Below, in pieces: positions 1-64,000 of a stretch of 64,000 nt of DNA (position 1 is its first letter; the number at the start of each line of letters is the position of its first letter). The position numbers and the translations under genes are program-made. The notes below the pieces were generated by a model that saw only the letters and a list, made by a program, of their open reading frames with translations, was not told the origin of the DNA and ran no database searches. The stretch spans positions 62,001 to 126,000 of the forward strand of contig CAMPDV010000103.1 in the NCBI GenBank assembly GCA_946699065.1, read 5' to 3'. Source of the stretch: Loxodes magnus (Eukaryota > Ciliophora > Karyorelictea > Loxodida > Loxodidae).

Positions 1-1370
1 ACATCTTCCTAAAGTATTATGATATTTTCTTTTCTAATAAGTATCTCTCTTCTCAATAAGTTCTACCTATTATAGAAAAATTAGGACTGTTGATAAAGGT
101 GCTTTTCGCTGCTGCAAGAAATAGCATTTCTTCGTAATTAACTAAGATAATTTCTTGAAGGTACAGGAGCATTATCTTGTTCCAGATCATTTTATCCTCT
201 ATTTCCTGTTTTTATGTTTGTCATTTTTTGATTTTCAATTGCATTTTTGCCAATTTTCTTATACTTTTTCATACCTATCTCTCAGTTCTGCTAGCTTTTA
301 TTGCTAAATTTTAGATTGCTTGCTCTTATTTTGCGATATGCTTTAAATGGGTATAGATCTCACTTTCAGACAGATATCTTGATTTTTCCTACTGTTATAT
401 TTAGTCTCTTCATTAACTTATATGACTAAATAGCTTTTTCCTATTTTAATCTCTTTTGTATCAACTTCTTCTTTATTGATTCAAATGTCAGTTTTAATAT
501 TTTTACATATTTATTATGAGTATAAATAATTAAATGTTTGAGCTTTGAAAAGTTAATTATAGGTATTAAAAAAACAGGAGCTAGCAACATCTTAGAAAAA
601 ATAGAACCAGGGAAAGGATTCCAAAAAAGTTGCCCATAAATCAAAAGTTCCATCAATGAAGATAACCTAGAAAATAGGCTAAAAATATTATACACTTGGG
701 AGACTCAAATTTCATCACAGAGTAGTAAATAAGCTACGGCTAACTGATAAAAATGGAACTGAACCTCCAGAAAAAATTCAAAAAAATAAAGAAAAAAAGC
801 AATTAGAGATTTTTGAAAAACTTGAAATAGTAGAGGAGAAAGAATCGAGATTCATGACTTAAGAAAGAGATCTTAAGTCTCCTGAAATATTTCACAAGAA
901 CAAAACAACCAAGTATAGAACTAGCAATAGAAGTAGAAAGAACTGAGCAAAAAGATAGAAAAAATAGAATAAATAAACAAAAATTGAAGCGTTAAATGAA
1001 ACTAAAGGAATAGTGAAATCAACCAATGATAATAGGAGGTTAGAAAACTGCAGGTTTAAACCTAAATGAGAAATGAAAAGATATTATTACAGTATCTCTA
1101 AAACGCGACTATAGAAAAGAAGCTAGAAATTTTACTTTAAATAAGAGTTCTGAAACTACTAGAAGAAACTGTAGAACAAAAAGAAAAGAAACTATCAGAT
1201 TTGTCTTACAACTAAATTTATCTTATTCTTATCTCATTCCTTAATATTAGTTTTTTGCTCTTAAAAGATTTATATCCAAAATACTTTCGAAGATTATTTT
1301 AAATGCTATAACAAGATAATGAACAAAAGGAAGAATTATGATCAATTTTGGTTACTTTTATGGAACAAAA
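1..1370 (-). CDS. Multi-pass membrane protein, 3' end outside the window (approximate 5' end)
   Basis: Read on the minus strand with TAA/TAG as Gln and TGA as Trp, one frame runs from about 1370 down to 392. It gives a series of hydrophobic segments separated by short loops, for example FLFIYSIFSIFLLSSFYFYC and LLIYGQLFWNPFPG, then a basic helix ending KRLNIT. A 34-nt GT..AG intron at 359-392 would join this to a strongly protein-like second exon, beginning IYTHLKHIAKQEQAIQNL, that runs off the window start. I do not recognise the family; an ion channel or transporter-like protein is only a guess. The true start codon is unclear because the frame stays open upstream. The short ORF seen here under the standard code (441-695) is part of this gene. 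Confidence 0.5.
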
Positions 1371-2299
1371 TTAAAAAATGAAAATAATGTAAGACAATAA
1401 AAACAATTTTTTGAGTTGGAAGGTTCTAGAAAAAGATAAGAAAGTTTGATAAGTATATTCTAATATTAAAATATAAATGAGACCAGCCTTAACTATTGCA
1501 TATAAGATACGTGATATTTGGTATATACCTATCTAAGAAATAAAAGAATGTATATATAACAATATTTTTGCTGGTAATGATATAATAATATTGATATTGA
1601 CTGAGACAAGGATTAATTTATTCTCTTGACTTTCTCTAAGTGTCTAACATTTTATTCTTTTAAAGTTAGTGAACTAACTGAAATTACTACATTTGCTTAA
1701 TTAAGTTGAGCATTATATTTCTTTTACTCTAAATAATGTGGATTAACTCTGACTAAATTTAATCTCTTTAAGTATCCTAACTTGAAAAAAGTGATTAAGT
1801 GATCAAGTTGTTATTCTAATTGGGAATTGTTCTTCTGATGTAAATTCCTTTATTAATGGCATTCTTTTTCCTTAGAGTCTTTTTCAATACAACTACCAAA
1901 TCTAAAAAACTAGATAACTTACTCATTATATTTAACTACATTTTAGTTATAAAATATCTCATCACACTACTACAAACCTTTGCTTTATATCTAGCTTTAA
2001 TAAGGATTTACATTACACTACCAAAATTTGTTTTTATAGTTTATCTAACTAAATTTTTGCCTAATCTTTCTTAATTTAAATATAAACTAACATTTGTTCC
2101 TACCTAACTATCTAAAGATAGATGTAAGCTAATTAACTAAGAAATACTACTTTACTTTAGCTTTATTCATATCTTTCTTAAAGAGAACTAAAAGGGATTT
2201 AATCTTTAGTTGCTACTATATTCAATCTCTTTTTTAACCTTAAGATAATTAAAATTAAGTTGTTTCGATTATCATGAAAGAATAAAACTTTCTAAATCA
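1371..2299. other. Stretch with no clear gene
   Basis: AT-rich, with many short homopolymer runs. No frame stands out by composition on either strand. It probably holds the upstream regions of the two flanking genes, which diverge. Confidence 0.3.
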
Positions 2300-2860
2300 T
2301 AAGGAGCCAGATTCAAAGCACTAAGCAAAAGTAATTACTATAAACACAAAAATTAGTTTCTTAAAAGTGAGCGCTATAAATAACTAAGCAGCTATAACTA
2401 TTCAATCTGTATGACACTAAATACTAATTAGATTCATCAAAATCCAGATAAATAATAAGATAGTTATAAGTAATTAAGAATGAAGAGCATAACTTAATTT
2501 TAAGATATTAGATAAAAAGAATTATCTTTAGCTTAATTTAATAGAAAGCATTTATTTTTTTATTAAGGAATGTAAGTTTTTAGCATTAAAAATGCTTAAT
2601 ATGGGTAATCTAATTTAAGTCAATGAGAAATTAGAATACCTTAACTTCAAACCTTGAAGGAGATAAAAATAATCCAACTAAAGTTAATTTTAAAATCTAC
2701 TTCCTTGATTGTAAAAATAAAGGGAGCTAAACTTTTCTTTTCAATAAAAATGGATTGTCTAGAACATGAAAAAAGGAGAGAGTTAAAAATGGAATTGAAT
2801 AAAAGGCTGAAAATAAAAATTAAGACTAATAAAAGTTTTAAATAAGTCATTACCAGAAAA
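2300..2860 (+). CDS. IQ-motif-like protein or fragment, copy 1
   Basis: One plus-strand frame, using the reassigned stops, contains ISFLKVSAINNQAAITIQSV followed by WHQILIRF. This resembles an IQ (calmodulin-binding) motif embedded in a basic helix, and then continues IKECKFLALKMLNMGNLIQV. A diverged copy lies at 14960-15400, with matching order and spacing (..NIQTVWGQ..). Both copies precede a tRNA-Lys gene and then a second shared gene, so this belongs to a duplicated block. Start and end are not resolved. It could be the last exon of a longer gene starting upstream. Basis: frame composition and the paralogue; the IQ call is weak. Confidence 0.35.
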
Positions 2861-3042
2861 GAAATAAAAATAGGATAAAAATTAAAAAAAATGAAAGGAA
2901 GCAAACTATATAAACATGATACAATCTACCTTAAAATTAAAGAAATTTAGTCTAAAATTTAAAGAAGATAAATAGAAAAGTGTTGGATACTTCAAGAAGT
3001 AATCAAATCTACATAAATTTAAAAACGTGATATAATTAATAA

Positions 3043-3115
3043 GCCGGTTTAGCTCAGTCGGTAGAGCGCCAGCCTTTTAAGCTGGTGGTCAAGGGTTCAA
3101 GTCCCTTAGTCGGCG
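3043..3115 (+). tRNA. tRNA-Lys(UUU), copy 1
   Basis: A 73-nt cloverleaf. The 7-bp acceptor stem pairs GCCGGTT with AGTCGGC (two G-T wobbles); the D arm is GCTC..GAGC, the anticodon stem CCAGC/GCTGG with loop CTTTTAA (anticodon TTT), and the T arm AAGGG-TTCAAGT-CCCTT. G is the discriminator base. There is no intron. A T4 run at 3116-3119 directly after it is the expected RNA polymerase III terminator. An identical gene lies at 19311-19383. UUU reads Lys codons; it is not a suppressor tRNA for the reassigned stops. Confidence 0.97.
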
Positions 3116-3384
3116 TTTTATTAAAATTAGTTCAATTTTTTAATATTCTGAGATAAAATTTAGTAGTATAATTGAATTTGATAGAAGCTATTAATTTACT
3201 ATATCACTTACAAATTATGCTGGTTAATATAATTATTGCTAATATCATCCTTTTACTCTCAAGCTTTTCAAAACACGAAAATCTATTATAACACTTATTT
3301 TATAAATTCTCTCAAACTCTATCCACTTATCTTACTAATTCAGATTATAAATCCTTAAATTTAGAGTTAAACAATTTTTTTAAA

Positions 3385-4330
3385 CTGAATTAAGAAAAAA
3401 TTGAAACAGCTATAGGAGTAAAAGATGGTATGCTTTATTGTAAATAACTTTAAGAAGCAAAAATAGAAATAAAAGAAAGAAGCTTGTAAAATAAATCCAA
3501 AGATAATGAAATCTAAGGAATGATAAATTAATATAAAATCTTAAACTTAAAAGTACTAAAACACTGAAAGGATATTTTATTTATTAGTCCTTCTAGAAAA
3601 GGTTCTTAAAAGATAAAACAGGATATTAATTTAACTAGTCAAAAGAAAAAAATAAATCTTCGATATGCTTTAAAAAGGTAAAATTAGCTTTAATCAAAAA
3701 TTCTTAAAATACAAATAAAGAAAGTAATAAAAACTTAAATTTGAAAGTATTAAAAAGGAAATATAATCATCGAAGTTAATTTGACTATAAAAAGCTTACT
3801 AAACTTCTTTCAAATAAATAGTTAAAATTAAAAAATAGCAAAATGTGAATTTTTCTTTATAAAAAGCAGATAAGAATGTATATAAACTAATAGTAGGAAA
3901 TATTTGATGTCTAGTTATCAGTTCTTTAATATAAAGGATAGAATTAGTGAAGATTTTTGTTTAAAAATAATTAAATTGAAGGAATAAAAGGCTGACTTTT
4001 AGGTTAAATATCACTTCATAGATAAGTTTAGCTTAAGGATAAATAGAATATGTAAAAGAAAGCTTGATGCTATAAAATGAGCAAATCCTTTAAGTTTAAA
4101 TTAAATTATTTAATTTAACAAAGCTAAACTAATGAAAAATTTAAATGATTTGAATATATTAATTTACAAAGAAAATAGACTATAAGCAATCTAATTAAGT
4201 TCAGTACTAGGTTATATAAAATGGGTTAGTTAGATAATTAAACAAATAAATATGTTCGTCTTTATGATTCTAGTCATCTCAAACACCTGTTGTGAAAAAT
4301 TAGCATTGTTATAAACTAGAAGCTTAATTT
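3385..4330 (+). CDS. Unrecognised protein, paralogue of the gene at 19614, cut off by a SINE-like element
   Basis: The frame starting at 3385 reads LNQEKIETAIGVKDGMLYCK. It aligns with the start of the gene at 19614, MSQEINKAAVGLKDSILYGN, after a similarly spaced tRNA-Lys. The frame stays protein-like for about 300 codons (e.g. SSYQFFNIKDRISEDFCLKI, DKFSLRINRICKRKLDAIKW), then runs straight into the repeat element at 4371 with no TGA before it. The ATG of the paralogue is CTG here, so this copy may have lost its start or may begin further upstream. It is probably a truncated copy of a roughly 2.6-kb gene. Function unknown; rich in Lys, Gln and Leu helices. Confidence 0.5.
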
Positions 4331-4370
4331 AAATTTATTATATATATATATAATTAATTATCATATATTT

Positions 4371-4880
4371 GTTTGAAGGTGAACAACAAGGGACATCTTC
4401 ATCAGAGGTTGGGGCTAAGCACCCATAATCGACTTTATGTCTTCCTCTGCTTTGGCTTGGCCTCGAGACATCTGCTAATTCAACCTTCGGCACTGGCTTA
4501 TTTTAGTTTTTAATTCTGGAAATAAAAGAAAATTATTTTGAGAGCTTCATCAGAAGTGGGGAATTTAAGTATCCATAATTGACACATGTCGTCCTCTGCT
4601 TTGGTGATATAATGAGACGCAACCCTGCCATGTCCTTGAACCTCCAACAAGTATTAAAGATTACTAGTATTCTAAAATTATATCAGTATTGAACATTTTT
4701 ATCAGTACTGAATAATTATATCAGTATTGTACAAGGTTTATCAGTATCTGATAATTTTATCAGTAACAAACATTCTTGGCAGTATGAAACGTTTATTAAA
4801 GAGCTGCGTACCAACGAGAGTGCTACGCGCTCTATAATCAAATTTATTTATCTATTTATTTATTTCTTTATATATAAATA
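4371..4880 (+). mobile_element. SINE-like element, copy 1
   Basis: Much less AT-rich than its surroundings, and matched closely by an inverted copy at 41281-41765. The order is: head GTTTGAAGGTGAACAAC; two related units sharing 'CTTCATCAGA..GTTGGGG' and 'GTCTTCCTCTGCTTTGG' (about 4390-4490 and 4540-4610); an array of about six 16-17-nt units built on ATCAGTAT (4679-4790); a GC-rich 3' stem-loop at 4801-4832; then an (AAAT)n-like tail. A 3' hairpin plus a short-unit tail is typical of a SINE or short LINE mobilised by a LINE reverse transcriptase. No good internal A/B box pair is visible, so polymerase III origin is unproven. It ends the reading frame of the gene at 3385. Confidence 0.7.
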
Positions 4881-4884
4881 AAAG

Positions 4885-5700
4885 GACATCTAAGAAATAG
4901 CAGAATACTCTCAATGAATATCTAAAAATAAGAATAATAACCTAACTTAATTGAATAATCGCTCTAAAAAAATTAAGGATAACAGTCTCAGGATTCTATT
5001 GCATATTATGTGGATATAGAATACAAAATCAACAACAAGAATTAGAATAAATTTTTAAATTTGAGCAATTAGAATATAAACTAGATTAATTAATATAAAA
5101 TCTAGATATTTAATTTCCATAAATAGTGGAAGCGATTAATGATATTTAATCTCAAGTGAGACCAAAACTATACGAAATTGATTAAAATTCAATAAAATTC
5201 TTAGAATTTTTAATTTTCTTAATTCTAATATTAAAAAAAGAACTGTAGAAGAAGAAAAATTTCTAATAGGAAATTATTTAAAAGATCATCAGATGACAAG
5301 GATGTATACTTATGGAAATAGAAAAACGAAATATAATAAGCTTTAAGAAGAAAACCCCATTGCTATATATGCTAAAAGTAGCATTGGAAAAATCAAGTAA
5401 TTTATAATAAAAATAATTTTGCCATTTTGCATGACTCAATTGCAATATACCAAAAAAGACCTGACTAATTTATAGAAAGAAGTTCTACAATTACAGGCTA
5501 GACTAGCATAAAAACAGTTTTTCAAGTGAATAGATTATATTCAATAAATTAATATCCAAAAATAGATGGCGGACTAAGGAAGTCCTATGCAATTATTTAG
5601 TTTAGGAGAATGCTGATACAAGATTTTGTTTTTTTCAAGACTCTCTCCTAAAACTATAAACTTAATTTTATCTTTTTATTTCTAGAATTTCAACTTATTT
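4885..5700 (+). CDS. Dispersed membrane/coiled-coil gene family, copy 1
   Basis: The plus frame begins near 4885 (KKQQNTLNEYLKIRII), passes a single hydrophobic segment (GFYCILCGY), and enters a Gln-rich coiled coil (IFKFEQLEYKLDQLIQNL). A conserved C-terminal motif, MADQGSPMQLFSLGE, follows near 5565. Copies at 39880-40660 and 52488-53650 share this layout and the last motif (MADQLNPKQIYSSRE; NPTQSFNLGE). First-codon differences between copies 1 and 2 (GCG/GCT, GAC/GAT) are silent in this frame, which supports plus-strand coding. The gene lies directly after a SINE-like element and faces the minus-strand gene at 5740. Introns and the exact end are unresolved. Confidence 0.5.
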
Positions 5701-5739
5701 GGTGATCGGTTTTTAACGTGAAAAACAGCACATCCCTTT

Positions 5740-8123: not shown

Positions 8124-10690
8124 TCAAAATATTTTTCTCTTCTACTTTTTATTATATCTTATATTTTCGTTTACTAAACTTGTATCATTAATATTGCTTT
8201 TATACTTTTATTCTTCTAAAGATGCTTTCATTTTTTTATTTCTATTTTATATACTTTAATTACTATTATCAATCTGGTTTAACTAGTTTTAGAAAGAAAG
8301 ATCTAGTTTTTGTCGTTCTTCTTTTTAGTTCTAAAGATATTCATATTCTTAATTTTACTTCTGGATAGAATTTTTTTAATAGAGATTATTGAGAATATTT
8401 TAATTCCCATTTATTTAAGCAGGACTTTTTACTATTTATTAGAAGTTTATACTTTGGGATAAAACATTACTATCATACTTTACTTGTTCTGCTTATTTTT
8501 TACCTTTTTATTAAATTTTAGATTTATCACTCTATTATATAGTTTAATTGAATTTCTCTATTTCTTTTTTAATTGGATTTTTAGAATTCACGTATTTTCT
8601 TTAACTTAAAGATATATTTAATTAAGTATTTTCAGGTTATTCATTCTATTATATAGTTGAAGAATTTCATACCTAATTAAAACTCTTGTCCAGAAGGTTT
8701 GCATTCACCAGTTCGGGCATTAAGTCATTTAAATCGATAAGATTATTCTAATTATTTTACTTTTATAACTATTAAAGTTAAAACTAGTTCCTAAAATTGG
8801 GATTCGGGCTTTAATTAGATTTTCTTAAACCAAGATTAATATCTTAAGCTTTTATTTATTCAAGTGTTTTTTTCACCTAAATTCCATCATTTTAATTATT
8901 CCTTATCTTTATCGTAATTTCATTCTAATTTTATGCCTATATTATTTTTCTTTTTTCTAAGGTATTTCTTTAATTTTACAAATTTTAGATATTAATATCT
9001 TAGTAATTTTATTAGTCTTCAAGTATTTATTCATATCTAAGCTACTTTTAGTTTATATCTTCTTTCTATTTTTAGCTTTTTGAATAAGCAATTTCATACT
9101 CTAGTTTTTAGCATTTATTTAATAAGCTTTAAATCTAAATGTTTAATTAAGTCTCTGTTTATTAATGATCGCCATCTTTAGCTTGTAATTCTTAAATTTT
9201 TTATTTTAACTATTCGATTTAACTGAGGTAACCCTTTTTCTTATTTTTTTCGTTTTCAATAATTTGCTTAAAAATCTCATCCTATTTAGCTTAATTTTAT
9301 TTTAACCGATGATTGTAGCTATCAAGTACTTTCTATTTTTATTCTTGCATTCTTTGTTCATATTCTTACTTTATCTTTGCTAGCTGATTATTTTAACTTT
9401 CTTTTATTTAGTTTAGTTAATCTTATAATTATTCAATTTAAGCTTATTTTTCTTAAATATTTGATTAGAGCTCCTTGTTTTACTCAGTAAGTTAATTGTT
9501 TTCATTTAGATGCTTCTAATTTAGCTAATTTTGTAATTATTCAATTTAATCTTATTTTTCTTAAATACTGGATTAAAACTTCTAGTTTTACTCAGTAAGT
9601 TAGCTATTGTTTGTTCTTAACTGCTATAGATCTTGATCTAGCTTCTATTTTTCCAGATTATACCTTTACTACTCTTGTTAGATCTGTAATTAAAACGTCT
9701 AATTTTATTCCCTTAGTATATTCCCTTCATACTCTAGTTTATTTATTTAATCCTAAAACAACTAAATTTGTTACATTTACGATTGACAATCTAGTTTTAA
9801 CTTTTAATTTTCTTCTCGTAAGTAATTAGCATCTTATTGTAGTTAATAAGCAAGGTTTGAATCATTTACTGTAGGCATAGTTTAGTAATAAGGTTAATAA
9901 CTTTTAGTAGCTTTTAAACTAAACTATTATTGTCCAGCAGAAGCAAATGCGTTTGTATTATTAAAGGTTTAATTACTGCTAATCTAATTTATTTAGTTAT
10001 TAAGCTAAAATATATTAAAGTAGTTGTTATTTTATTCTTAAGTGTTTTATATTTCTTCTATATATTTATATTTCAATTAATATATTGTTCCTGCCTTATT
10101 CTTCTAGTAAAACTCTACTACATTTTATGGATTATGTTTATATATTTCAGCTAGTTTTGTAAGAACTTTTATTTCATTATCGTTAACTTATTCTTCTTTG
10201 GTCATTTTGTTTTAATCTCTATTGAAGAAAGCTAACAATTAGAGTAGTTTAGACTACAACTCATCTAACTGTTTCGCTATTTAACATTGCTACTCTAGTA
10301 TTTATAGACTTTATTTGTAGTTAGCTTCTTTAGAGGTTATTTTTAAGTTTATATCTAAGACATCTAGATCTCACTAGAGCTGCTTAATTAAATCATAATC
10401 TCCTCTAGGCTCTAATATTTTAGCTATTCTTTCTCTTTCTTTAATCTATTCTATTATTACCAATATTCTTTCAGTTTTTTCACTTAAATCAGCTAAATTA
10501 GAATTAGTTATTTTGCTCAATTCCTCCTATTTTTGCAAAATCTAATAAACAATTGCCTGGCAGCGTTTTGAGATTATTTCGTATATAGAATAGTTAATCT
10601 AAGGATTAAGACACAGAGTAATAGTTGCTTGGAGACATTGCAACCCTTAACTAAACTTTCCTCCCTCTATTAAGGTTTATAAATTATTTA
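8124..10690 (-). CDS. Long Gln-rich coiled-coil protein A (tandem paralogue of B)
   Basis: A single minus-strand frame of about 800 codons ends at TGA 8124-8126 after NIRYNKKQKRKIF. It reads as a textbook coiled coil with very many TAA/TAG Gln codons, for example IEQLQNQLNQKHLNENNQLT. The repeated unit 'NNQLTEQNKELQSNIQEKQ' recurs about 60 codons apart. Nearer the N terminus is ILEPRGDYDLIKQLQWDLDV, where the Trp codon is TGA at 10371-10373. It aligns with VLETRNDYDITKQVQWDLEM of gene B, where that Trp is TGG (13071-13073). A short Gly/Ala/Phe/Gln linker (FNNTNAFASAGQQQ) separates an N-terminal helical region from the coiled coil. The 5' end is unresolved: other frames look coding upstream of 10600. 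Likely a cytoskeletal or ciliary scaffold, by composition only. Confidence 0.7.
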
Positions 10691-19310: not shown

Positions 19311-19383
19311 GCCGGTTTAGCTCAGTCGGTAGAGCGCCAGCCTTTTAAGCTGGTGGTCAAGGGTTCAAGTCCCTTAGTCGGCG
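19311..19383 (+). tRNA. tRNA-Lys(UUU), copy 2
   Basis: Identical over all 73 nt to the gene at 3043-3115, with anticodon TTT, and followed by TTTT. The flanks have diverged but remain alignable downstream (..TTTAGTAATATATTTGAA.. here, ..TTTAGTAGTATAATTGAA.. in copy 1). So the tRNA came with a larger duplication, and only the tRNA itself has been held constant. Confidence 0.97.
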
Positions 19384-22506: not shown

Positions 22507-25500
22507 ATGGCTTCATATCCTATCTGTGATTATTAGGCCTTTAAACTCTAGCTATTTATTATTTTACTTAGAATATAAGTTTAACCTTCTTTAAAAACTG
22601 AAAAGTATCTAGCTAAATATCCTCAAAACTGTATCTAATATAGCTTTAAGTAATTCTCTTTTCCTTACAAAGAATTTAGTGCAACTATTTAGCTAGATCT
22701 TGATGATTTAAGTGAGGTAACTTATTTACCTTTCGGACTTTCATGCTAGTTTAGTAGTTTAGGAAGATGCAACTAATGAAAGTTATCTATTGAATTATGT
22801 AGCTCTGAATGTTAACTTCAGAATGTGGATATTACTAAAATAACTGCTAATTATACTGTGATAATGCTCATTTTAACTCTAATTATTCTGAGAAGGTTAG
22901 ATAGAAAACTGTCAAGATTAGAGTTATTTAGGTCCTGGTAATAAATATTAATTATTTATTTATAGAACTATTAGCTATACAAATCAGAAAGTAGGGTGAT
23001 TGTGTATGTCATTTCAATGCTTCTAGTATTAATCTAAATTTTATTACTCAAACTGTTGCTTTACTCTAAGTAGATACATTCCAGATCTTATCAATAATGG
23101 GTAATGTAATTAGGAATGCTTAAATCCTATGTGAATTACATTTAAATATATTGCTTGCAAAGATACTTGTTAAACAGCATCCTCAGGAAAATATACTTTT
23201 GATAAAATAAAAAATTAAATTTGCAATGAAGAGTGCTTGAACAATGAGTGTAGATGAGATGCTATGGATTGTTTAGAAACTGCAGAACAAGATGGAAAAT
23301 TCAAATCTTTCTCATAACTAAAGAAATCACCTTTTAGCTCGCCAGGATGTTTATCCTAAAATAATATAAATTTGTTTTAGCAAACAGGATATTAAAATGT
23401 GATTTTGTATACATGACAGAATACTGTTAATGAAACTAAGGTGACTGTTGGTGATATAATGCTATACTTATAAAGAGCAAACTTAATAAAATTTAAAATT
23501 TCCAGTTACTACCTACTTTACAAAATATCTCTAAAGTAAATAATAGAAAAAGATAGAATTTCGATCCTCAAAGCTGTATTACGATGTGTACTTTTGATCT
23601 GAATTTATTTTAGACTTGAATCTACTACAATGATAGAATCTATCTATCATTAACTTAAAATAAATAGAATTTAAAGCTGTAAGTATTTTAATGCAATTTG
23701 TGGCTAACATATTTCGGATTAAATGTTTGCTGATAAATCCTTTAATCTTACCTAATAAACTGAAACTAAGCAAAAATGATAAAGGACTGTAACTGAAATA
23801 TGATAGGATATGGTGTTTGTGATAAAGCTTGCTATGAAATATGATAATAAAGCTAGTAAGGCAAAAAAGATGAAAATGATTGCTAAAAGTGCTTAGAAAT
23901 TGATTAAATTGTGTGACCAATAAAGGAGTAAAATTTGCTATTTAGCTTGTTGTAATTGAGCTTTCAAGTGAGACGGAGGAGATTACTAGTAATGCTTAGA
24001 TCGATGATGTAAAATGAAAGAAATAGGTGACTAATTTTTATAAAATAAATGATATTTCAAGAAATGCTTTTTCGATAATAATTAGAAAGGAAATGATGAT
24101 TCTTAACAATATTTTTAAACGGGCTGCAATATAGAAAAGTTAAGAAAAGATAAATATGATATAGAGTGTGATATTTAACAATGTAACTATGATTCTATAG
24201 GATAGGAATACAAAGAAATTCTTTAGGAGCATTAATTGTATGAATCATTTGTTATTAAAAATTAGAGATGCTCTAATTCCTTATACTAAAAGTTCCGTGA
24301 TTGTAATTTTAAATGTTAAGTAAAGAAATTTTATGGAGTTAACTAAGAGTTTTATGATACTAAGTTAATAGGAGATGAAAATTGCGATGTAAATCTATTA
24401 AATTATGAAAGCAATTTTGATGATCTTGATTGCTGCAACTAGAATTATTTAACATCTTGTGAAAATTTAGGTTTAACTTTGAATAATTTTTGTCATAATG
24501 GAGTTTTAGTGATTAGGACTGTAATTAGCAACAATGTGGTTATGATAATGTTTATTGTCTTTATTTTGCAAGTTAGTAAAATACTTGATATGATAGTTTC
24601 CATTGTCATCCTGAACTAATAAACGATGATTTTTGTGATTATAATGCTATATATAAGACTGTTGATACAATGGAAATGGCTGCGAAAAACGTTGTATAAG
24701 TCTATGTTAAAGTTCAAAAAGAATTGGAGGTTACAGATTTGATAATGGCTGCTTTAGTTAAGTTTGTAATTTTTATGCACATCCAAAAGTGATAGAAATG
24801 CTTAGAAGAGCTGTTTTTTAGTACATTTACTTTAGTGATATCTGTCTAAGTAAATATACTGAAGAAAAAAGTTGGAAAGTAATATTAAGATTACTAAATG
24901 AGTATTACTATGAAGATTAGTGTAACATAGTTTAATGCAATTATTGTAATAGCCATTGCAAGTGTTCAGATCCTTTACAGTCTGATTTTGATCATAAGTA
25001 AAGCTTATTTAGCTAAGATGAACAATGAATTTTGTCTAATCTTTTATAATCTTAAATATGTAACAGTTAAGATTTAGAAAATAACGAATGTAATTAGAAC
25101 TGCAATTCTAAAGATTGTGGTTAAGATTCTAGCAGGATTTATCGAGAGTATGAATGGTCTCAATAATCCTTAGTGTGTTTTGGAACTAATTTAGCAACTT
25201 TAGAGAATCCATAAATCATTAATGTCGGGAATTAAAATTTACTTTATCTTAGCTAAATAAAAATGGAATAGAATACAAATTTTGTGATTCAGCATCTTCA
25301 CAACAACTAATAACATCTAGAACCTTACTAATGGTTCTTATTAATTAGGTTTTATTATTTATAAAGGACTAGGAACTTTCGATCGCATTATCTCACTTTA
25401 GCTGAAGCTTTATCAGAAGAAGTATAAAAGAAGCATATAAAGATTTTATTATAAAGTATAAATAATTACTTAGATCAATATTATGAGGAATAAAGCTAAA

Positions 25501-28500
25501 TGGCTTCTGAAGAACCTACTTTATATTTTTTACTTAGAAAAGTATTTTAAGAATAAAAAAGTTTATATAAGTAATTTAAAAAGTTACTATCTAAACACTT
25601 TATTGTTAAGCTAATAGCAATACTAACACCTCTAACTTAATATAATGTGTATCAAATGATAAAGATAAAGCTAAAATTATATTTTAGATCTTATATTCAA
25701 CTGACTGCTTATAAAGTACATCTTCATTTTTAGAATGTTGATAATGAAGTAATTCGTAAATAATATATAGACTAAAGGAATAAAATGTAGCTTTTATGAT
25801 TAATGATAATGTAATATTTGTATTTAAAGGTAGTTTTTTAAAGAAAATCCATACATAGTAGAATATGGCTATATATGAAATTTTTAATAGCATTTAAATT
25901 ATTCTTCTTATGATATAGCAGAGAAATATGCATAATGCATAAACAACAAATTCAAAATTATAAAAGGAAAATTTAGTTTAGATAATGTTTGACTTCATTA
26001 ATTTACTAAAAAGAATAAAAACTATGATGAATGCTAGTGCTGTGATTTAGAGTTCAATGGTACAGATTTTTAGTACTGGAATAGTAAAATATTTCATTAA
26101 TATCTGCTGCGAAGATAATAGATTTGATAGTGGAGATTTAAGATATAAAAGAGGAAAATTAGCTAAGATGGATAACTTTCATTACCTAATACTTGAAAAT
26201 TAAGAAAATTAAATTGCTAATTTTTCTTTTCCTGGATTCTTGAAAGCAAATTAAGTAGATCTCATTTATATAGAGGGAGTGACTTTTGAATTTTCACTAC
26301 TGACATTCAAAAGTTAAGTTATATTACTAAAAGGAACTTAAGTAATGGAAATTAATCAGAAGAAAGTTTGATAAAAATAGAATATTTTAATGCCTCATTT
26401 AAGCAGCTTTACTTTTACTATAATCAAGTTAATAGATAAGGAACTATTTAACCAGTTCAAATCAATGTAAATATACAAGATTTTTTTTTAATCTCAATTA
26501 CGCTCTATAGTAAGCAGCTGCTTTTGATACTATATCAAGCTAGCTCAAATTTCAAAAAACTAACTTTATATAAAATTCAGTTGCTAAGCTTATGGAAGTT
26601 ATCTCAATTTTCGGAAGAAATCCAAAGACTGAATTTTAGAATTGCTCCTTTATGGAAAATACAGATCCTATAGCAAGTTGTATATACTTGAGTCAGAACT
26701 CCTAATTTTTTATGTCTAACTGCTTAGTAGCAAAAAACTTAGCAGAAGTAGGAGGATTCTTGAAGTCTGATAAATCTTAAATAGCAATTACTGATTCCAA
26801 GTTTATCAAAAATAAAGCATATGAAGGAACTGTTTTTCATACATAGATATCAGATATATATCTTAATCAAGCGGTTTTCAGTAATAAAGTAGCATAAAAA
26901 TTTGAAGAATTTGAGCTTTTAGAACTAAAGAGTAGTTTAGAAATGAAAAATTTAGAAGTTAAATACTGAGAAACAAATGAAGGAACATCCCTTTTGTTTA
27001 AAGTACATTGCTCTTAATAAAAATTCAGTAATCCACAGCAACAAAGCTTACTCTACTGGAATATTAAGTCTATTTACTTCAAACAATTCTAATTAATTAC
27101 ATAATAAAATCATTTTTAATAATAGTGGGAATCTTCCATTATTTAGGTATAGCAAAGTAATTTAAGCATTCATTAAGTAAAAATGTTCAATAAAAAAGCT
27201 AAATACTAGAATTTAGGAGTTTAGCTTATAATTCATTTTTTTAATTAATTAATCAGTTTTTGAAAATTAGCAGGTACATTAAGGAGTTTTTGTATTGGGA
27301 GAATTATAGTCAATTATAGAAATTTATCATTCTTAATTTAAAAATGCAGAATCCTCATCAGGAATAGCATTTTATATGACACAATCAAACTTAGTCTTAA
27401 AATTAGTTAATTTTAGCAAATCAAAAGTTACTAACTAAGGCGGAGCTATTTAAGCACTTTAATCAATCTTAAATGTACAGAAATCATTTTTTATGATTGT
27501 GAGTCTAACGATTATGGATCAGCGATTATATGATAAATTCTGAAATTTAAATGATTGAGTGCATGCTAACAAATTATAGCAATACAGTTTTAACTATCCA
27601 TGAATAAAGTATATCAAATATAAGTTTCTCTAATGGAAATAGAGAGCAAGAATATGGATCCGCTATTTATTTTTTAAACTCAATAGTTAATATTTTCAAC
27701 TGTTCATGTCGTAACTAAAGAGCATTGTAAGGTTCATGCTTTATAATCTTAAATTATTAAGTATTAGCTCATATTAGATAACCAATAATACTTTTCACTA
27801 GAATATTATCTTCAAATCAAATTGCAAATATAGCCTTTGATCGAAATATTTTTAGAGATAATTAAATTGAAGCAAATCCAAAATCTATTTCTAAAAGAGG
27901 AGCTCTTCACATTAATTTATGACTACCAATAAATATACCAATACATAATAGATAATAATACTTTCCTAAATAACTCTAATAGGTGAAGGAGGAGCTATTT
28001 CATTTATTGGTACTGCTCCAATATTTGTTCCTGATATTTATAGCTCAGAAATATGTTAACTGTTCTTATTAATTCAGCCTTCTATGGTAATCATATAGCT
28101 TCTTTCACCTTTAATTAAAGGAATGATTCTATAATTAGCGTTTTAGATTATAATACTCCATTATAATTTATGTCTTAATTACCTGGATTTTCTATTCCTT
28201 GAACTTTTGATTTATATTATTGATTATTTTAGCTAGCTTCTTAAGACTGACTTTTACTCAACTGCATAACTATTTTCAGATAACTCTTAGTTATTAGGAA
28301 AATATCAAAATATATGCTGTATTTGGTTTTTTAATATAAAGGAAATAATTATTTAAACTAAACCAGGAAGAATAGTTCACTTAGAAATAGGAGCAAACGC
28401 TATAGATTTGTAGAACTTACCTTACAATTCTAAACATAAAATGGAAAGGCAGTACTACATTAAACAATGTATGATAGACTAAGTATTTGTAGAAAGCTAC

Positions 28501-41010: not shown

Positions 41011-41280
41011 AGAAAATGATAATAATTGCTTATAGTGGTTTTGCATAAAAATAGATTAATAACTTTAAAGTCTATGTCACAATTCTCACTTTGTCATTTA
41101 TTCTGGTATTATGCATATTTGCATTGAATATTTGAAAGCATTCAATCTTTTTTCCATCTTCAAATGGAGATATCTCTAACGGATTTATTTCCAAGTTTGA
41201 TTACCCATGCTTTTCGTTTGTATCTTTCTCTTTCTATAGTAGCTTAATGTTCAAAAATATCTTTTCTCTACGTAGTTTGA

Positions 41281-41765
41281 TATCAGACATATAAATAATA
41301 AATAAATAAATTTGATTATAGAGCGCGTAGCACTCTCGTTGGTGCGCAGCTCTTTAAAAAAAATGTTTCATACTGACAAGAATGTCTCTTACCGACAAAA
41401 TTATCAGATACTGATAAACCTTGTTCAATACTGGTATAATTTTAGAATTCTCGTAATCTTTAATACTTGCTGGAGGTCCAAGAACATGGTAGGATTGTGT
41501 CTCATTGCATCGCCAAAGCAGAGGACGACATGTGTCAATTATGGGTACTTAAATTCCCCACGCTCGAATGAAGCTCGCAATATTATTTCTTTTTCGTTCC
41601 AGAATTAAGTCCAAATTAAGCCAGTGCCGAAGGTTTAAGAATCTTATGTCTCGAGGCCAAATCAAAGCAGAGGAAGACATAAAGTCGATTATGGATACTT
41701 AACTTCCCCAACCTCTGATGAAGATGACCTTGTTGTTCACCTTCGAACAACTATGGCGGTTTTAA
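41281..41765 (-). mobile_element. SINE-like element, copy 2
   Basis: Inverted relative to copy 1 at 4371 and closely similar over nearly its whole length. In element orientation it runs from the GAAGGTGAACAAC head (about 41745), through the two related units and a shortened ATCAGTAT-type array, to the 3' stem-loop at 41321-41352 and an (AAATAAAT)n tail (41281-41313). The stem-loop is 'GAGCGCG..' pairing with '..CGCAGCTC'. The array is about three units shorter than in copy 1. The standard-code ORF at 41312-41608 lies wholly inside the repeat and is not a gene. Confidence 0.7.
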
Positions 41766-42178
41766 AAAATAATATATAATAAATTTATCATATATATTAA
41801 TCTGCTTGTTTTATCTATGTTTACTTTTACATAAAAAATTACAATTTCAAATAATTCCTAGGAAGCTCGCTTCAAACAAAAATTATTTTTTCTGATAAAT
41901 AAATACAAAAAAGTGGTACCACCATTGCTAAATTCGCTATTTCTGTTCTAGAAATTCTTTACTCGCAATGTCTTTATTTATTTTTGTTCTCTAGATCATT
42001 TTTTTCTTTATCAGTTTTAAATCAAAATTGATTATCTCCTTTCTCTAAGTTATTGAAATTCTTTCTAGAGGTTTGAGTAGAAACTAATTAGATAAATTCC
42101 AGTTCTTGTGTTAAATAATAAAGATTAGTTAATTTTTTCTACATAAAAATTTAGTTTTTATTTTATTTGGTTGCAGAC

Positions 42179-44818: not shown

Positions 44819-47507
44819 TCATTTTTTGCTCCAAGGAGGGTAAGTCTGTAAATGCTCTTTCGGGTAATCAGGACCTGTTTCTGTTCCCCTGCATGCCTTA
44901 TATGGCAATGTTCTTGGAACCATCTAGATTGCATCTTCTACTGGACATACAACTATGCATAAAGAGGATCCGGTGCAGTCCTTTTCGACTATTTCAGGAA
45001 AATTTTAGGAATTTTTAAATAATATTGACTGATACCCAGCATCTACACATGCAAGGTAGCATCTTCCGCATTTTAAGCATTTATCGTTATCGATAACTGG
45101 GACTTTAAATTATCCTCTATTCATTTTTTAGATAGGAGATAAATACTTTAGCTTAGTCCCTATCATATCAGTTATCTTTGGAGTTTCTTTATTTTCTTCA
45201 TAAGATTTGATACTTTAAATTTTATCGAAATCAGTAGGAGGAAACTAGCCGTGCCAGCCTTTTTCTACAAGTTGCTTTTAATTCAAAAGATAAATATGAG
45301 CTTGCAGACTTGTTTTAAGATCATAGAGCACTGTTTAAAAGTCCTAGTTTTAAACAGAAGAACAAATCTATAATGCTTTTGCTCCATAATTTATGAAGGC
45401 AAGTGCATTATCTCCAGTAATTATCCCTCCACTTCCAAAAATATCAATATCAGTAACACATTGTGATACATCAGAACATTTTTTTAGCGCAAAAGGTCTT
45501 AGTATATTTCCTGATGTTCCACCACTAGCAAAATGATTTTCTTCTCCAACTCCACAAAGAGGTTATCCAGAGGGTAAAGGATCTTATAATCCAGGCAGTG
45601 TATTAACTAATGTAACTGCTTTAGCCCCTCCTTCTTTAGCAGCATTTGCAAGGATTTCAGAATTTCCGTAATTTGAAATAACTTTAATGATAACAGGAAG
45701 TTTTGTATTTTCAACTATCCAACTTGTAATTTCTTTAACGATACTAGGATTCTCTCCTAAAGCTCTTCCCATTCCTTTTTCATTCATTCCATGTGGGCAA
45801 GAAAGGTTCGCTTCAATTGCATCAAACCCAGCATTATTGGCCATATTCGTAATTTGTATCCAATCTTCTTTACTATATCCACACATAATAGAAGCAATGA
45901 GAACTCTATCAGGGAAGTCTTTCTTAATATCTTTTGCTCCTTCTATTCAGTATTTATATGTCTTTTCGCTTATCATTTCTATATTTCCAAATGAAGCTCC
46001 TAACTTTAGTTAATCTACTCCCATTTTGAAAATTCTAGGAGAAACATTAGAGATAGCATCTTTATCCAAGACAAAAGACTTTATTACTGCAAATCCCCAT
46101 CCACATTCAAATGCTCTTCGAATCATAGGATAAGATGTTGTAGGAGGAGCTGATGCTAAGCCAAAAGGATTTTCCAATTTAAGACCTATAATCTCAGTTG
46201 ATAAATCAACTTAATCTATATTAGTGAAAAATTCAGGTAATTGCGGCTCATTTGGAACTAAATTTTAGTTTTTCTCTTAAATGTATTTATGGATATGCCA
46301 AGAGGCTGTTTTTCCATCATTTACTGCATCTACTAGATTTTAAGTTCCAATAGCATCACCTCCCACAAAAAGCCAATCATATGCCTTAGACTAGCCTGTT
46401 TTTAAGTTAACGTCTATTACTGATTTTTATCCCTTTAATTTCTAAAGTCAGTCTTCATCTGGTAGTTAGCATCCAAAAGCTTATATAACGAAGTCTACTT
46501 AGAGCTAATAATTTTGATTAGTCTTCTTATAATTTAGCTTATTGGGGTCATTTGATTGAGGAAGATTTTTATCGAATTCAACTGCTTAAACTTTGCCCTC
46601 GCTATCCAATATATACTACAAAGGAGCAGAATATGGAACAAAGTTTATACCTTCTTACTTTGCTGGATTAAAGATCTCGTCGTTTGCTCTCAAGTCTTAG
46701 AATCCTCTACGAAAGGCTACCGTCACTCGTTCAGCTCCTTGTCTAAATGCTGATCTGGCGCAATCAAGAGCAGTGTCACCAATACCTAATACCAAAACAT
46801 GGCCTTTTAAAGTGGGAACTTGTTGATTTGATTTTTATTTAGTGGCTTTACATAATTTTGTAAGAAATGACTTAGAAGTATAAAAGTTAGGTGCTTTTAA
46901 TGCTTCTTATATACTTTTATTAAGCAGTTTCTCGTTCTTAGCCAAATTAGCAGCTTATAATCCTATACCTAAAAATATAGTATCAAACCCTTATTATTTA
47001 AGATCTTACAATGAAAAATCTTTTCCAAGTTGCTTTCCATAATGAAATTGAACTCCAAGTTATTTAACAAGGTCTACTTCCCATTATATGTCCTCAAATG
47101 GAGCTCTATTTTATGGTATTTCTTGAGTTACTAATCCACCTCCAAAATTATCTTTTTCAAAAACGTGAATATTTTCATATCCTAATCTTCCAAGGAAAGA
47201 TGCACAACTTAATGAAGAAGGTCCTGCACCTATTATAGCAATAGGAGTTTTAAATGAAGCATTAGAGTTGTCTATCTTAGGGTTTCTTATCTTTTCTTAC
47301 ATCATTCACAATTTTTAGTACGATAAAATAGCTTAGAATACTCTTCTCGTTCTTTAGTAGGTATTACTTTCAATTTACGATTATTGGCAGACAACTAATC
47401 CACAATATCCTTCTTAATATCCGGGTCAAAGTGAGTCAGCTGTTTTGAAACCCTAGAAGAGAACAAGCAAACCACATTTTTAAAATGTACTAATTTTCTA
47501 AAGACAT
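44819..47507 (-). CDS. DPYD-like: Dihydropyrimidine dehydrogenase (NADP+)-like, lacking the N-terminal Fe-S domain
   Basis: Reduces uracil and thymine with NADPH, the first step of pyrimidine breakdown. ATG 47507 gives MSLENQYILKM, then a 23-nt intron (47453-47475), then [20 protein letters not shown]. From 47285 to the end one frame carries the FAD site ([29 protein letters not shown]), the NADPH site ([20 protein letters not shown]), the FMN/substrate barrel with catalytic Cys ([16 protein letters not shown]), VNTLPGL and [14 protein letters not shown]-terminal 4Fe-4S motifs are [11 protein letters not shown] and [12 protein letters not shown]; the second has Ser where the family has its second Cys (44966-44968). 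The conserved Trp in TYKYWIEGAKD is TGA (45947-45949). The two N-terminal Fe-S clusters are missing: the frame jumps from KLFY(RTKNCEWC) straight to IRNP. It ends at TGA 44819-44821. Confidence 0.93.
47296..47321 (-). other. Candidate 26-nt intron or deletion scar in DPD
   Basis: The 26-nt sequence GTACTAAAAATTGTG..ATGTAAG, if removed, joins SKLFY in frame to QKIRNPKID. If it is read through instead, it encodes RTKNCEWCK, which resembles the start of the N-terminal Fe-S domain of other DPDs (KNC..C). It therefore marks the point where roughly 110-130 residues are absent. Which reading is right decides whether this is an ordinary intron or a loss junction. Confidence 0.5.
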
Positions 47508-49754: not shown

Positions 49755-52067
49755 TCACATTGCATTTTATTAGCTATAAGCCATAATTCTTATACATCTC
49801 ATTTCAATCTGACTATTAATTAATAAATAAACTTACATTACCTATCTCGATTACTTCTAGACATTTAATATTCTCTAGAAATTCCATCTTCTCATCGTGA
49901 ATTTTTTTTTCTCATCCTAGAAATTCCAAAATCCCGTTCCAGATATCAACCACTTATTATCTTTACTTATCGCTAAAGTTCCCACTGATACGAAATTTCC
50001 TTATAATGGGCATCTACATTAGCCAGAATTAATATCCCATATTTTTATTAACTTGTCCTGGCTTCCTGATATTATAGATCTATTATTGCTACTTATTTTC
50101 ACAATAAGTATATGATCTGAATGTCCTGTAATCGTTCGAACACATTGACCAGTTGAAAAATTTAAAATCTTTATTGTCTTATCTTTACTGCCAGATAATA
50201 ATCATTTATTGTCACATGAGACTTCTACAGTGTTTACATAATTTGCATGACCATACAGAGTATTCTTTAAACCTCCAGTTTGTAAGTCCCATATTTTTAT
50301 TGTCTTATCTTTACTTGCAAAAACTATTAATTTATTATCACTTGATATTTTTACAGCATATAAAGAATCAGAATGAGCGTCTATATTTCCATTTAGTTAT
50401 TCAGTTATCATATCCCATATTTTTATTGACTTATCTTCACTTCCTGATACTATTCATTTATTATCACTTGATATTGTAACACTTAATATAGAACTTGCAT
50501 GTCCATTTAGAGAACTTTTTAACTAACCAGTTTTCATGGCTCATTTTTTTATTGAATTATCTTCGCTTCCTGACACTATTCATTCATTGTTATTTGATAT
50601 TGCAACAGAAAGTACATCACTCATATGTCCCCCAAAGTGAACTTTAACTAACCGCTTGATATTTCCCATATTCTTATCGTATAATCACCACTACTTGATA
50701 TAATTAATCTATTATCGCTGGAAATGACTACAGCATATACTAAATTCGAATGTCCTTCAATAGTATGAGGATATTCAGTTAATACATTCAATAGATTAGC
50801 ATTTTCCAAGTTACAACTAATAAATTTGGTATTCCTCAAGTTGCAATTTTAAAGATTAGAGCTTGAAAGATTACAATTAATGGAGATTGCATCTGATAAG
50901 TTTGTATTTTCCAATCTTATTTTCCAGAAATTATAATCCTTAAACTTATGATTCAAGAAACTTAACCAAGTCATCGCATTAGTAGCAGTTCATTCTATCT
51001 CCTATTAGACTTTAGTTAAATTTATAATTCTCAATAGTTTTTCCTTTAAATTGTTGTTGTCTAACTAACTTAAAGCTAGCATATAATTAATGTTCCAAGT
51101 GAAATTTATTTTGTTAAAGGGACTTTGAATCAATTTGGCTAGTATTTGTCTTATTCTTAAATCTCAGATAAAAACTATTTTAATTTTCTTTCATTTTTAA
51201 ACTCTCTAAACTGCTTCTGAAATTAGTCTTCCTATAATCTTAATAAGAGTTATGAAGATTATATTATCACTTCCTAATTAGTAGCTTAAATCAATTAGAA
51301 TATTTCTATCTCTTATCCTTAACTTATATTTCCCATTAGTTATTTAAAACTTACTATTATTATCTGAAATATTAATCTAAAAACCTTTCAACATTTGACT
51401 CATGATTATTCTATCCTATCATGCTATTTAGAAATATAAAGATCGCATTTATTAGATAAAATTTGAAATTTTGGATTTTTGAATCACTCCATTCTGAGGA
51501 TATTTAGAACTATTTAGCTTTTTCTACTTCTTCTTTCATTTCTTTGTAGCTTTATTATATTTCATATAGCTACTATATGCTCTAGTTGCACTACTACTCA
51601 CCTTGTACTTCAGTTTCTTTTATTTTCTAGAAACTAATTTTCAATTTAATTAGCTTTTTTATTGAATCTTCAACCTAAATGATGTTTTCTTAATATGGCC
51701 ATGCATCGTTTTGGCTTGAATATTTAGCGCCTTTTTGGTAGGCAATAATGCTTTTTGTAGCACCTGCATGTATCTTCTTTTAATTATTTCTCCAAGCTGT
51801 AAGAGATTGAATCATACCCATTAAATTTTCCCTCTAATCAAAAATTCTTAGTTCTAACTTCAAATATTCAAATAGGTTAAAATTTTTAACATTCTATGCC
51901 TGTAAACTAAAGCATGAACTATGCTTTTTGCAATTAAATTTACTATCATGTTGAGAAACTAGATTAACAAATGCCTAACAAGTAACACAGGTACAGATAA
52001 GAATTTTAGGAATTCTTTCGTCTTAATTGAAATCCTGCATACAATTTTTACAAAAACTAAAATCCAT
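49755..52067 (-). CDS. Zinc-finger / coiled-coil / pentapeptide / WD40 protein
   Basis: ATG 52067 (MDFSFCKNCMQDF) starts a Cys/His cluster (CKNC..CTCVTC..H..CKKHSSC) of the RING or B-box kind. A coiled coil follows (QSYKEMKEEVEKAKQF). After a short intron-like junction near 51440 comes a helical region (SDNIIFITLIKIIGRLISEA), 'TATNAMTWLSFLNHKFKDYN', and a pentapeptide-type run (NLSSSNLQNCNLRNTKF). Then come about seven WD40 blades (HSNLVYAVVISSDNRLIISS; GHMSDVLSVAISNNNEWIVS; DKSIKIWDMITEQLNGNID). In several blades the residue after 'DNK' is TGA, where Trp or Leu is normal. The middle plus WD40 resembles the C-terminal half of ciliate NACHT-WD40 proteins, but no NACHT P-loop is present. Likely a ubiquitin-ligase-type scaffold (inference). 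The 3' end at TGA 49755-49757 is tentative. Confidence 0.85.
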
Positions 52068-57840: not shown

Positions 57841-57842
57841 TA

Positions 57843-58075: not shown

Positions 58076-58369
58076 ATTTGAAGTAAATAATAATCAAATA
58101 AATATATAAAAATCTTCAACAAAGTAATGCTAATTTGTTTCTTTTCATTACTAGTTTTGTCAACTTAATTCTATTTGGTTATATTTGCTTTTCTAACTTC
58201 ATAACAAAATACAAATTTCATTGATACTTTTGACATTAAAAATTATGAATTTTTGATTTTAAAGCTAAATTTATATTTGGATATATATAATTAACTTTCT
58301 TAGTTTTACTATTTTTAGTCAAAACTATATTAATTTAATGATTTGTTTTTGTGGATTTATAGATGATAT

Positions 58370-59170: not shown

Positions 59171-59194
59171 TAACGTAACATAACATAACATAAT
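59171..59194 (-). repeat. Short (TTATG)n tail of the LINE
   Basis: About three to four pentamer units (plus-strand TAACATAACATAACATAA) directly after the last coding-like sequence of the LINE. Short-unit tails of this kind are common at LINE 3' ends and fix the orientation of the element. Confidence 0.7.
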
Positions 59195-61990: not shown

Positions 61991-62291
61991 AAATAATATA
62001 TATAATAAGTATTTCTCATGTTATGACCATAAGCTATATGCAGTTTCTTTAAACGGATATAAGAAATGTTTGCTTATTGTGCTTATAAAAATATGAGTCT
62101 TTTGATAAGTAACTTTATACGCTTCTCAGAATACTCTCTTAGAATTCTCTTTTGAAAGTAACTATAACCCATTAATACCTTATAATCAGATTCTAAGAAG
62201 GTCTAATATTCTCTATGCATGCTCATAAGGGAAAGTTTAACTAAGTATACATATTTCTTTAGATATCATAACTCAGGTAATTAAACTAGAT

Positions 62292-63532
62292 ATGGCTGTT
62301 CTACAACTATTCTTATAAAGATTAGAAAGAGCAAGAGAGTAGTTAAGTATGTAAAGTAGGTTTACTGTAATATCACGTAAGGAAAATAATATACTAGTTA
62401 TATATCCAGATTCTCATTACTTCAGTCTAATAGGATTAGAAGCACTACCATTTAAATATTTCTAGCTTAAATATTTAAAATAAAAAAGCATTTTTATACA
62501 TAAGCAACTAGAATCATTTACTATAGGTATGAATTATAAAAGTAGGGATAAGTTAATAAGATGATATATGCTTAGTAAGCAAAGAGATTAACTCATATAG
62601 ATAACTTGCTAGTTAAACTAAGCGTATTTATTTTCGTGGTGGAGAATATTAAAAGCAGATATATCCATATGAACTACTAGAGTTAGTATTCATAAGTAGA
62701 TAAATAATGAATAAAGTACTTTTTATAGATAGTATCCAAGAATCTGTTTATTCGATGGATAGTGATATTTTAATATTTCTATTAGCTAATACTTTTAAGA
62801 GTAACTATTAGCAAATAGTAATTAAGAGAAAAGTAAGGATAGTTTGAAATTTGATAGCATTATTGAAAGTAGATGAGGTAAATAAGAGTTGATATCCAGC
62901 ATAATTGTATATAAATATCGGTGCTAATTATGCTAGTTATGCTTAAGATAAATCTATATTAGTTGTTTTAAGCTTTCTGAAGATTTCTCTTACAAAGGTT
63001 TTTCCCTTTAAAGACATTAATCCTTCTATCAATTAACTTAAAGCATTTACCTTAGCTTAGATTAAGGAAATTTTTCAGCTTTTTATTAGAAATTCCTTTC
63101 AAAAAAATTGATTTTCCTGCTTCTGCGCTGGATTTTAGCGGAACTATCATAGAATTGGCTCAAATCATTTAAACTTTATATTTAAAGTCACACCTAATTT
63201 ACTCTCCCCATTTGATGCCTTTTAATTCTTATTTATTAAGAGGTAATTAAGTAAAGTGGAGATCAGAAGAACTAAAATTAGCAAAAGAAGAAAATACCTT
63301 TGAAGTTCCTTATTGTAAACCATAAAAAAACAACAAGATATAGCAATAGCAGACAGATATTTGAAATTAATCAAACTTAGTAGACAAACTTGAGAAGCAA
63401 TTGGAATAGAACTTAAGAAAAGAGAACATAACTAATAAGAGAAGATAGCATCAAAAATTTAGTCTAATTTAGCAGGATATGTATGATAGTATCATCCTAA
63501 AAAAAATAGTAGGCTTTTCAATTAAAAAATGA
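62292..63532 (+). CDS. Unrecognised protein of about 410 residues
   Basis: ATG 62292 opens MAVLQLFLQRLERAREQLSM, FTVISRKENNILVIYPDSHY, FSLIGLEALPFKYFQLKYLK and YRQYPRICLFDGQWYFNISI. One frame reaches about 63230, and a second frame then gives SEELKLAKEENTFEVPYCKP, NQSNLVDKLEKQLEQNLRKE and DMYDSIILKKIVGFSIKK, with TGA at 63530-63532. A single small intron near 63230 would join them. A clear ATG and TGA and good composition make it one of the firmer unknown genes. No domain recognised. Confidence 0.6.
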
Positions 63533-64000
63533 GGGTTAATAATATAATTTAATAACTAAAACCAAAATACAATTGAGAGACTAACAATCATTAACTAATC
63601 AAAAAGCATTAATAAAAAATAAAAAAAACACTCAATTTTAAAGGCTTTTATAAAATTGGCTAAATCAGTAAAATGGTATATTTCATTAAAAACAAATTGC
63701 TAATATATATACATGTAAGAAAGGATTTTACACAATATGAGGTTAATTAAGAGTTAAGATAAAGGCAATAATAATCAGAAAAAATGATATTATCAAATGA
63801 GCCTGTAAATTTTAATATTAGGTAATCAACTTTTTCTATAAAAATTAAGAAAACACTAGCTGACGAGAAAAAGTGAAAATAACTTACTTTCGAACATAGA
63901 TTTTAGTGCTGCCTTTATAATTTTAAAAGTAATATAATTTTTAGTTAATTAGCTTCTATTTTGATTGTATAATAGCTTATTAAAAAGGAGAAGACTTACC
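63533..64000. other. Stretch with no clear gene
   Basis: AT-rich sequence to the end of the window; no frame, repeat or RNA could be supported. Confidence 0.35.

Follow-up and report, generated by a model that had tools for sequence, protein, structure and literature searches.

Sense readings of UAA, UAG and UGA in a 64-kb window of DNA that is probably of karyorelict ciliate origin

In the window analyzed here, a 64,000-base stretch of DNA (contig CAMPDV010000103.1, positions 62,001 to 126,000 of the forward strand) composed of 25% guanine plus cytosine (GC) and 75% AT, the three stop codons of the standard code occur within genes. Judged from alignment with homologs, UAA and UAG, taken together, appear to decode as Gln rather than Glu. 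Trp seems to be the best single reading of UGA within genes, an aromatic residue being favored in most tests. The sense meanings of the three codons are genuine and belong to a code that has been described before; this code does not by itself reveal the lineage. We consider it probable that the window belongs to the nuclear genome of a karyorelict-type ciliate with NCBI code 27, Loxodes or a close relative being the likeliest candidate. In such an organism, UAA and UAG would be ordinary Gln codons, for which tRNA-Gln species with the corresponding anticodons would presumably exist, and UGA would specify Trp within genes and stop at gene ends. The stop role of UGA, the position-dependent choice between sense and stop, and the tRNAs are suggested by published work on relatives. 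In this compact example of such a code, two conserved domains suffice to decode the three stop codons.

Gene content and the reading of UAA and UAG

The initial annotation of the window stated that calling open reading frames (ORFs) with the standard code finds almost nothing, and our analysis agreed. The longest standard-code ORF was 120 codons, a length reached or exceeded in 6 of 60 simulated sequences built from the base triplets of the window. When only TGA was treated as a stop, the longest ORF was 567 codons, which was matched by 11 of the 60 simulated sequences. ORF length is thus chance-like under either setting. Because simulated sequence gives frames equally long, open frames prove nothing in the window, and gene recognition therefore depended on homology. 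The window illustrates that arguments from ORF length fail in such AT-rich genomes.

We scanned 30 stretches picked from 89 segments of an unsupervised coding hidden Markov model (HMM) against Pfam, together with table 27 translations of the six frames, cut into 30 pieces (25 of 35 families were listed for two of the minus frames). The search of the translated proteins, which had been proposed earlier, recognized three clear genes, namely DPYD, a gene with WD40 repeats (the WD40 gene) and a gene with Notch-like LNR domains (the LNR gene), covering approximately 8 kb of the 64 kb. Of the 30 HMM-chosen stretches, 26 had no Pfam match at E 0.01, and the same two minus frames rescanned without the DPYD and WD40 stretches returned no families. 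A PapJ match (E 0.0011) and an Anticodon_2 match within the LNR gene each scored under the family cut-off and were dropped as chance.

The 1927 codons examined in the three genes included 78 TAA, 34 TAG and 18 TGA (60%, 26% and 14% of in-frame stop codons), as well as 38 CAA/CAG and 18 TGG. Thus, the statement that every recognizable gene carries in-frame stops, 130 in total, held for what amounts to three genes. UGA accounted for 0.93% of their codons, and the ratio of UGA to UGG was 18:18.

The conserved part of the gene for dihydropyrimidine dehydrogenase (DPYD) was identified using Pfam and homology at 44819..47293 on the minus strand, with a candidate stop TGA at 44821-44819. Its 824 codons included 30 TAA, 8 TAG and 2 in-frame TGA, and the GC content of this coding sequence (CDS) was 33.6%. 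When the stops were masked as X, the translation matched pig DPYD with E 9e-198 (query residues 167-896 and 867-975 aligned), and there was no frame change over the aligned query span 167-975.

Pairwise decoding, with pig DPYD and two further PDB chains as references, was abandoned as a means of telling Gln from Glu. In four alignments, TAA faced Glu 14 times and Gln 5 times, and CAA, a certain Gln codon, faced Glu 7 times and Gln once. Because the pairwise alignments failed to separate Gln from Glu, we used a deeper column-wise test, in which the masked DPYD frame was compared using tblastn with 61 loci and two pig pieces (62 of the 63 subjects aligned; mean depth 35). An initial homolog scan by protein alone had returned no homologs. 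For TAA (29 of 30 columns usable), Gln scored 6.3, Ser was next at -2.0 and Glu scored -4.2; for TAG (7 of 8 columns usable), Gln scored 4.9 and Arg was next at 1.7. When UAA and UAG (UAR) were pooled, Gln scored 11.1 and Glu -5.2. When the sense codons were read in the same way as a control, 46 of 57 were assigned correctly; seven of the 11 misses had three columns or fewer, and the others were AAC, AGT, TTC and CAA.

The sum of Gln-minus-Glu scores in DPYD was +16.3 for UAR (bootstrap 2.6 to 31.0), +2.5 for CAA/CAG and -31.3 for GAA/GAG, and the UAR sum remained positive under all three pseudocount settings. For UAA, 4% of bootstraps of Gln over Glu were at or below zero. Further, at the 21 DPYD columns with Glu in at least half of the homologs, the gene uses GAA 12 times and has no UAR (P 0.00015, calculated from codon counts). 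When UAR was set to each of seven residues or X, Gln gave the best Pfam score for the dihydroorotate-dehydrogenase domain (93.2, compared with 90.3 for Lys and 88.8 for Glu).

Several results weigh against Gln. CAA itself was read as Glu, by 0.7, in the DPYD column test. The preference of UAG alone for Gln over Glu was not firm, with 6% of bootstraps at or below zero across 7 columns. In the redox domain of DPYD, Lys (43.2) and Glu (42.2) scored above Gln (41.9), and Gln was ahead of Lys by 1.5 bits when summed over three DPYD Pfam models. In the WD40-domain columns, the three TAA favored Lys, with Gln third, and the one usable TAG favored Glu; these columns are too few to weigh against those of DPYD.

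The reading of UAR as Glu, with UGA as Trp, would correspond to a Blastocrithidia-type code (table 31). The 14 to 5 excess of Glu over Gln opposite TAA fits this code, as does the location of 17 of the 19 frames called by an intron-aware coding HMM on one strand. Trypanosomatid genes are clustered on one strand. However, CAA has a like excess of Glu (7 to 1), the column-wise inference prefers Gln, UAR occupies no conserved-Glu column, and the GC content of Blastocrithidia ORFs is 38.7-46.4%. We regard a table 31 code as extremely improbable.

The in-frame stops might also be those of pseudogenes in decay, the code being either the standard one or Tetrahymena-like. DPYD apparently lacks its N-terminal Fe-S domain (three upstream frames were searched and none contained it), and in the C-terminal Fe-S motif one Cys aligned in pig is Ser. 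Further, the WD40 gene exhibits two apparent -1 frame changes, near 50631 and 49876 on the minus strand, each at a short single-base run; these may represent assembly error, gene decay or frameshifting. These features are those expected of decay, but DPYD holds 40 in-frame stops in 824 codons and yet shows no frame change in its aligned part, UAR sits in Gln-like columns, and all three recognizable genes carry in-frame stop codons. Accordingly, pseudogenes are a very unlikely explanation, and the reading of UAR as Gln is preferred.

UGA within genes and at gene ends

The WD40 gene lies at about 49.5-52.1 kb on the minus strand and was recognized using Pfam, its RING-like and pentapeptide parts being named by eye. 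The WD40 repeats (49881..50630, minus strand) comprise 250 codons, including 3 TAA, 2 TAG and 4 TGA. The N-terminal part (50969..52064, minus strand), RING-like and coiled as judged by eye and with no Pfam match seen, comprises 365 codons, including 19 TAA, 14 TAG and 2 TGA. In a column test of the WD40 domain with stops masked (24 of 25 loci aligned), Trp scored 5.1 over the four TGA columns and Tyr was next at 3.0. One of these codons, TGA 50541..50543 on the minus strand, stands at the Trp position of a WD repeat; this column is Trp in 13 of 16 homologs and, by eye, TGG in 5 of the 6 other repeats. For three of the WD40 TGA, again by eye, another repeat has TGG at the corresponding position. 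In the homolog alignments, the three TGA columns other than that of 50541..50543 were mixed (Thr, Arg, Lys), as was one TGG column of the same gene. In DPYD, the two TGA columns together gave Trp 2.4 and Val next at 1.5. TGA 45947..45949 (minus strand) faces a Trp of pig DPYD that was found in pig only among 33 homologs, and the other in-frame TGA faces Trp in three homologs.

When TGA was set to each of nine residues or X, the WD40 family PF00400 scored highest with Trp (164.7), followed by Tyr (163.8) and Phe (162.1), compared with 153.1 for X and 147.9 for Gly. In the LNR gene (PF00066), Trp was likewise best (23.9), with Phe at 23.2, Tyr at 23.0 and X at 16.5. Two results count against Trp in particular. 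The control for the WD40 columns was weaker, with 25 of 45 sense codons recovered, and in a tally of the 22 WD40-type Pfam models for which all ten choices were listed, the top score went to Tyr 7 times, to Trp and Phe 5 times each, to Arg 3 times and to Leu twice. A Tetrahymena-type code (table 6), in which UGA serves solely as a stop, was rejected in view of the 18 in-frame TGA in the three genes, four of them within the WD40 domain. The earlier statement that in-frame TAA/TAG stand where Gln fits is borne out, the two being pooled, by the homolog columns of DPYD, and that TGA stands where Trp fits by those of DPYD and the WD40 gene.

The initial annotation further held that the best-defined genes end at TGA. 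DPYD provides the only homology-anchored gene end in the window. TGA 44821-44819 lies behind its conserved C-terminus, 35 codons past the last in-frame UAR, and GC content, which is 43% over the preceding 150 nucleotides (nt), is 18% over the following 50 nt and 22% over the following 100. An in-frame TAA, however, occurs five codons past the TGA; termination at TAA is thus possible, and the DPYD end cannot settle the stop codon. At the candidate TGA ends 8126-8124 and 25797-25799, which are without a homology anchor, the GC content of the next 50 nt was 4% and 16%, respectively. The claim was thus borne out only in part: DPYD has a TGA with AT-rich DNA following it, but the nearby TAA and the unanchored state of the other ends weaken the case.

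Stop-neutral change points obtained for 17 of 19 predicted frames, DPYD included, were scattered and did not cluster at TGA. TAA was nearest to many of them, but TAA is common everywhere. In the 60 codons before the three candidate stops, we observed no UGA and two UAA, compared with approximately 0.6 and 2.4 expected in this small sample; in L. magnus, the last 20 or so codons ahead of the stop are depleted of UGA and UAA. By analogy with relatives, UGA probably serves as a stop as well as a Trp codon. Its meaning could be set by distance from the poly(A) tail, in combination with a short 3' untranslated region (UTR), as is characteristic of the karyorelict code. Codes that reserve no stop codon show that ribosomes can use position to distinguish sense from termination.

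Other features of the window

The LNR gene (23042..25799, plus strand) was recognized using Pfam, spans at least two frames and has a possible stop TGA at 25797-25799. Its segment 23042-24505 comprises 488 codons with 26 TAA, 10 TAG, 10 TGA and no TGG; the gene is UGA-rich and its frame is less secure than those of the other two. The frame change at 24500-24530 (plus strand) could be accounted for by a GT-AG stretch of 14 or 26 nt or by a shift of one base. A Gln-rich, coiled-coil-like frame of 847 codons at 8124..10670 (minus strand), with a candidate stop TGA at 8126-8124, had no Pfam match. It contains 134 UAR, 26 CAA/CAG, 2 TGA and no TGG, and its product would be about 19% Gln.

The 23 introns called by the intron-aware HMM were not trusted, one of them falling inside clearly coding WD40 sequence. 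A tRNA gene search of the window detected two tRNA-Lys genes only, and neither a suppressor tRNA nor tRNA-Trp. The two tRNA-Lys(TTT) genes (3043-3115 and 19311-19383, plus strand) are 16 kb apart, with identical 73-nt cores and flanks that are partly conserved on both sides. Further, an interspersed repeat of about 480 nt was observed in inverted orientation, with copies at about 4400-4890 (plus strand) and 41250-41770 (minus strand) and matched pieces 80-95% alike; neither Rfam, at gathering scores, nor Pfam gave a match to it.

Source of the window and comparison with known codes

The comparison facts were taken from published sources (PMC11441545, PMC4967479, PMC12005148, PMC6935857, PMC12153298 and PMC6394959). 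These give table 27 for L. magnus, with averages of 33.5% GC in CDSs and 18.6% in 3' UTRs and with introns mostly of 16-25 nt. An earlier transcriptome study lists karyorelicts, including Loxodes, as reading UAR as Gln and stopping at UGA. According to a work that the Amoebophrya paper cites, a tRNA-Trp(CCA) whose anticodon stem has 4 bp reads UGA in Loxodes.

The CDS GC content of DPYD (33.6%) and that of the 50 nt 3' of its TGA (18%) match the L. magnus averages. In the WD40 gene, the change between two frames is spanned by a candidate 22-nt GT-AG intron (50945..50966, minus strand; a 28-nt alternative lies at 50939-50966), which is within the L. magnus range. The 81 bases at this frame change contain GT-AG candidates of 17, 22, 23 and 28 nt among lengths of 14-30 nt, and only those of 22 and 28 nt fit. 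A karyorelict source is favored because of the GC match of the DPYD CDS and 3' flank and because one frame change fits a 22-nt intron. The code and source proposed in the initial annotation therefore stand in part: UAR as Gln and UGA as Trp were recovered, UGA is probably also a stop, and a karyorelict is the best fit by GC content and intron.

Other observations speak against Loxodes. The other gene parts have a CDS GC content of 26-30%, so that the L. magnus match holds for DPYD only. Tandem repeats make up 1.7% of the window, compared with about a third of the L. magnus macronuclear assembly, although this shortfall is weak evidence, one window being set against a genome average. The L. magnus genome is rich in long interspersed nuclear elements, and six-frame Pfam scans of the window detected no reverse transcriptase (RVT_1). 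Finally, UGA makes up 0.93% of codons in the three genes, compared with 0.12% in the karyorelict Parduczia.

The UGA:UGG ratio of 18:18, against UGA at 0.042% of codons in the heterotrich Condylostoma magnum and 0.12% in Parduczia, together with the low repeat content, would suit an undescribed lineage that reached the same code independently. However, the GC content of DPYD matches that of L. magnus, and the contrast in UGA usage may vanish because no figure for UGA usage in Loxodes was found in the literature searched; an undescribed lineage is thus unlikely. The high UGA usage might be an unusual quantity and is only a lead, drawn from three genes of which one is UGA-rich and less secure in frame. 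We consider it unlikely that UGA serves in the source of the window, whether or not this is a karyorelict, as a mainstream Trp codon (18 of 36 Trp codons) and also as the sole stop. If this were true, UGA would be much more ambiguous between sense and stop than it is in C. magnum or Parduczia.

The preferred karyorelict source has to be weighed against two further organisms with the same sense codons. In the code of C. magnum (table 28), all three sense meanings are identical to those of the window, and UAA and UAG also terminate translation. Such termination was not seen in the window, but the in-frame TAA five codons after the DPYD TGA would allow it. In contrast, in-frame UGA is rare in C. 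magnum, and heterotrich introns are reported to be 15-16 nt long, unlike the 22- and 28-nt candidates that alone fit the WD40-gene frame change; these patterns were not seen in the window, although its genes are a small sample for both comparisons. A heterotrich source with all three codons as both sense and stop is quite unlikely.

A slightly smaller probability is given to the syndinean dinoflagellate Amoebophrya sp. ex Karlodinium veneficum or a relative, in which UAR is Gln and UGA is Trp and the apparent sole stop, being the only stop seen in conserved genes; a later genome paper leaves the stop codon open. Its in-frame stops (58% UAA, 32% UAG, 10% UGA) are close in proportion to those of the window genes, and, as in the window, its genes are sparse and simple repeats are few. 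However, the Amoebophrya genome is 65.2% AT (35% GC), compared with 75% AT in the window, and its dynein heavy chains strongly prefer UGG over UGA, unlike the window genes. Further, the average MAKER gene of 2063 bp for 331 residues suggests long introns, whereas DPYD aligns over some 800 codons without an intron. The earlier claim that TGA ends favor the karyorelict type did not survive this comparison: because Amoebophrya shares the code and also appears to stop at UGA, and because the DPYD end allows TAA, TGA ends do not name the lineage.

Blastocrithidia (table 31) likewise uses all three codons as sense codons, with UGA as Trp, and differs in that UAR is Glu there and Gln in the window. 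In the karyorelict code (table 27), found in Loxodes magnus and Parduczia, UAR is Gln and UGA is Trp as in the window, and TGA stands at the window's only homology-anchored gene end.

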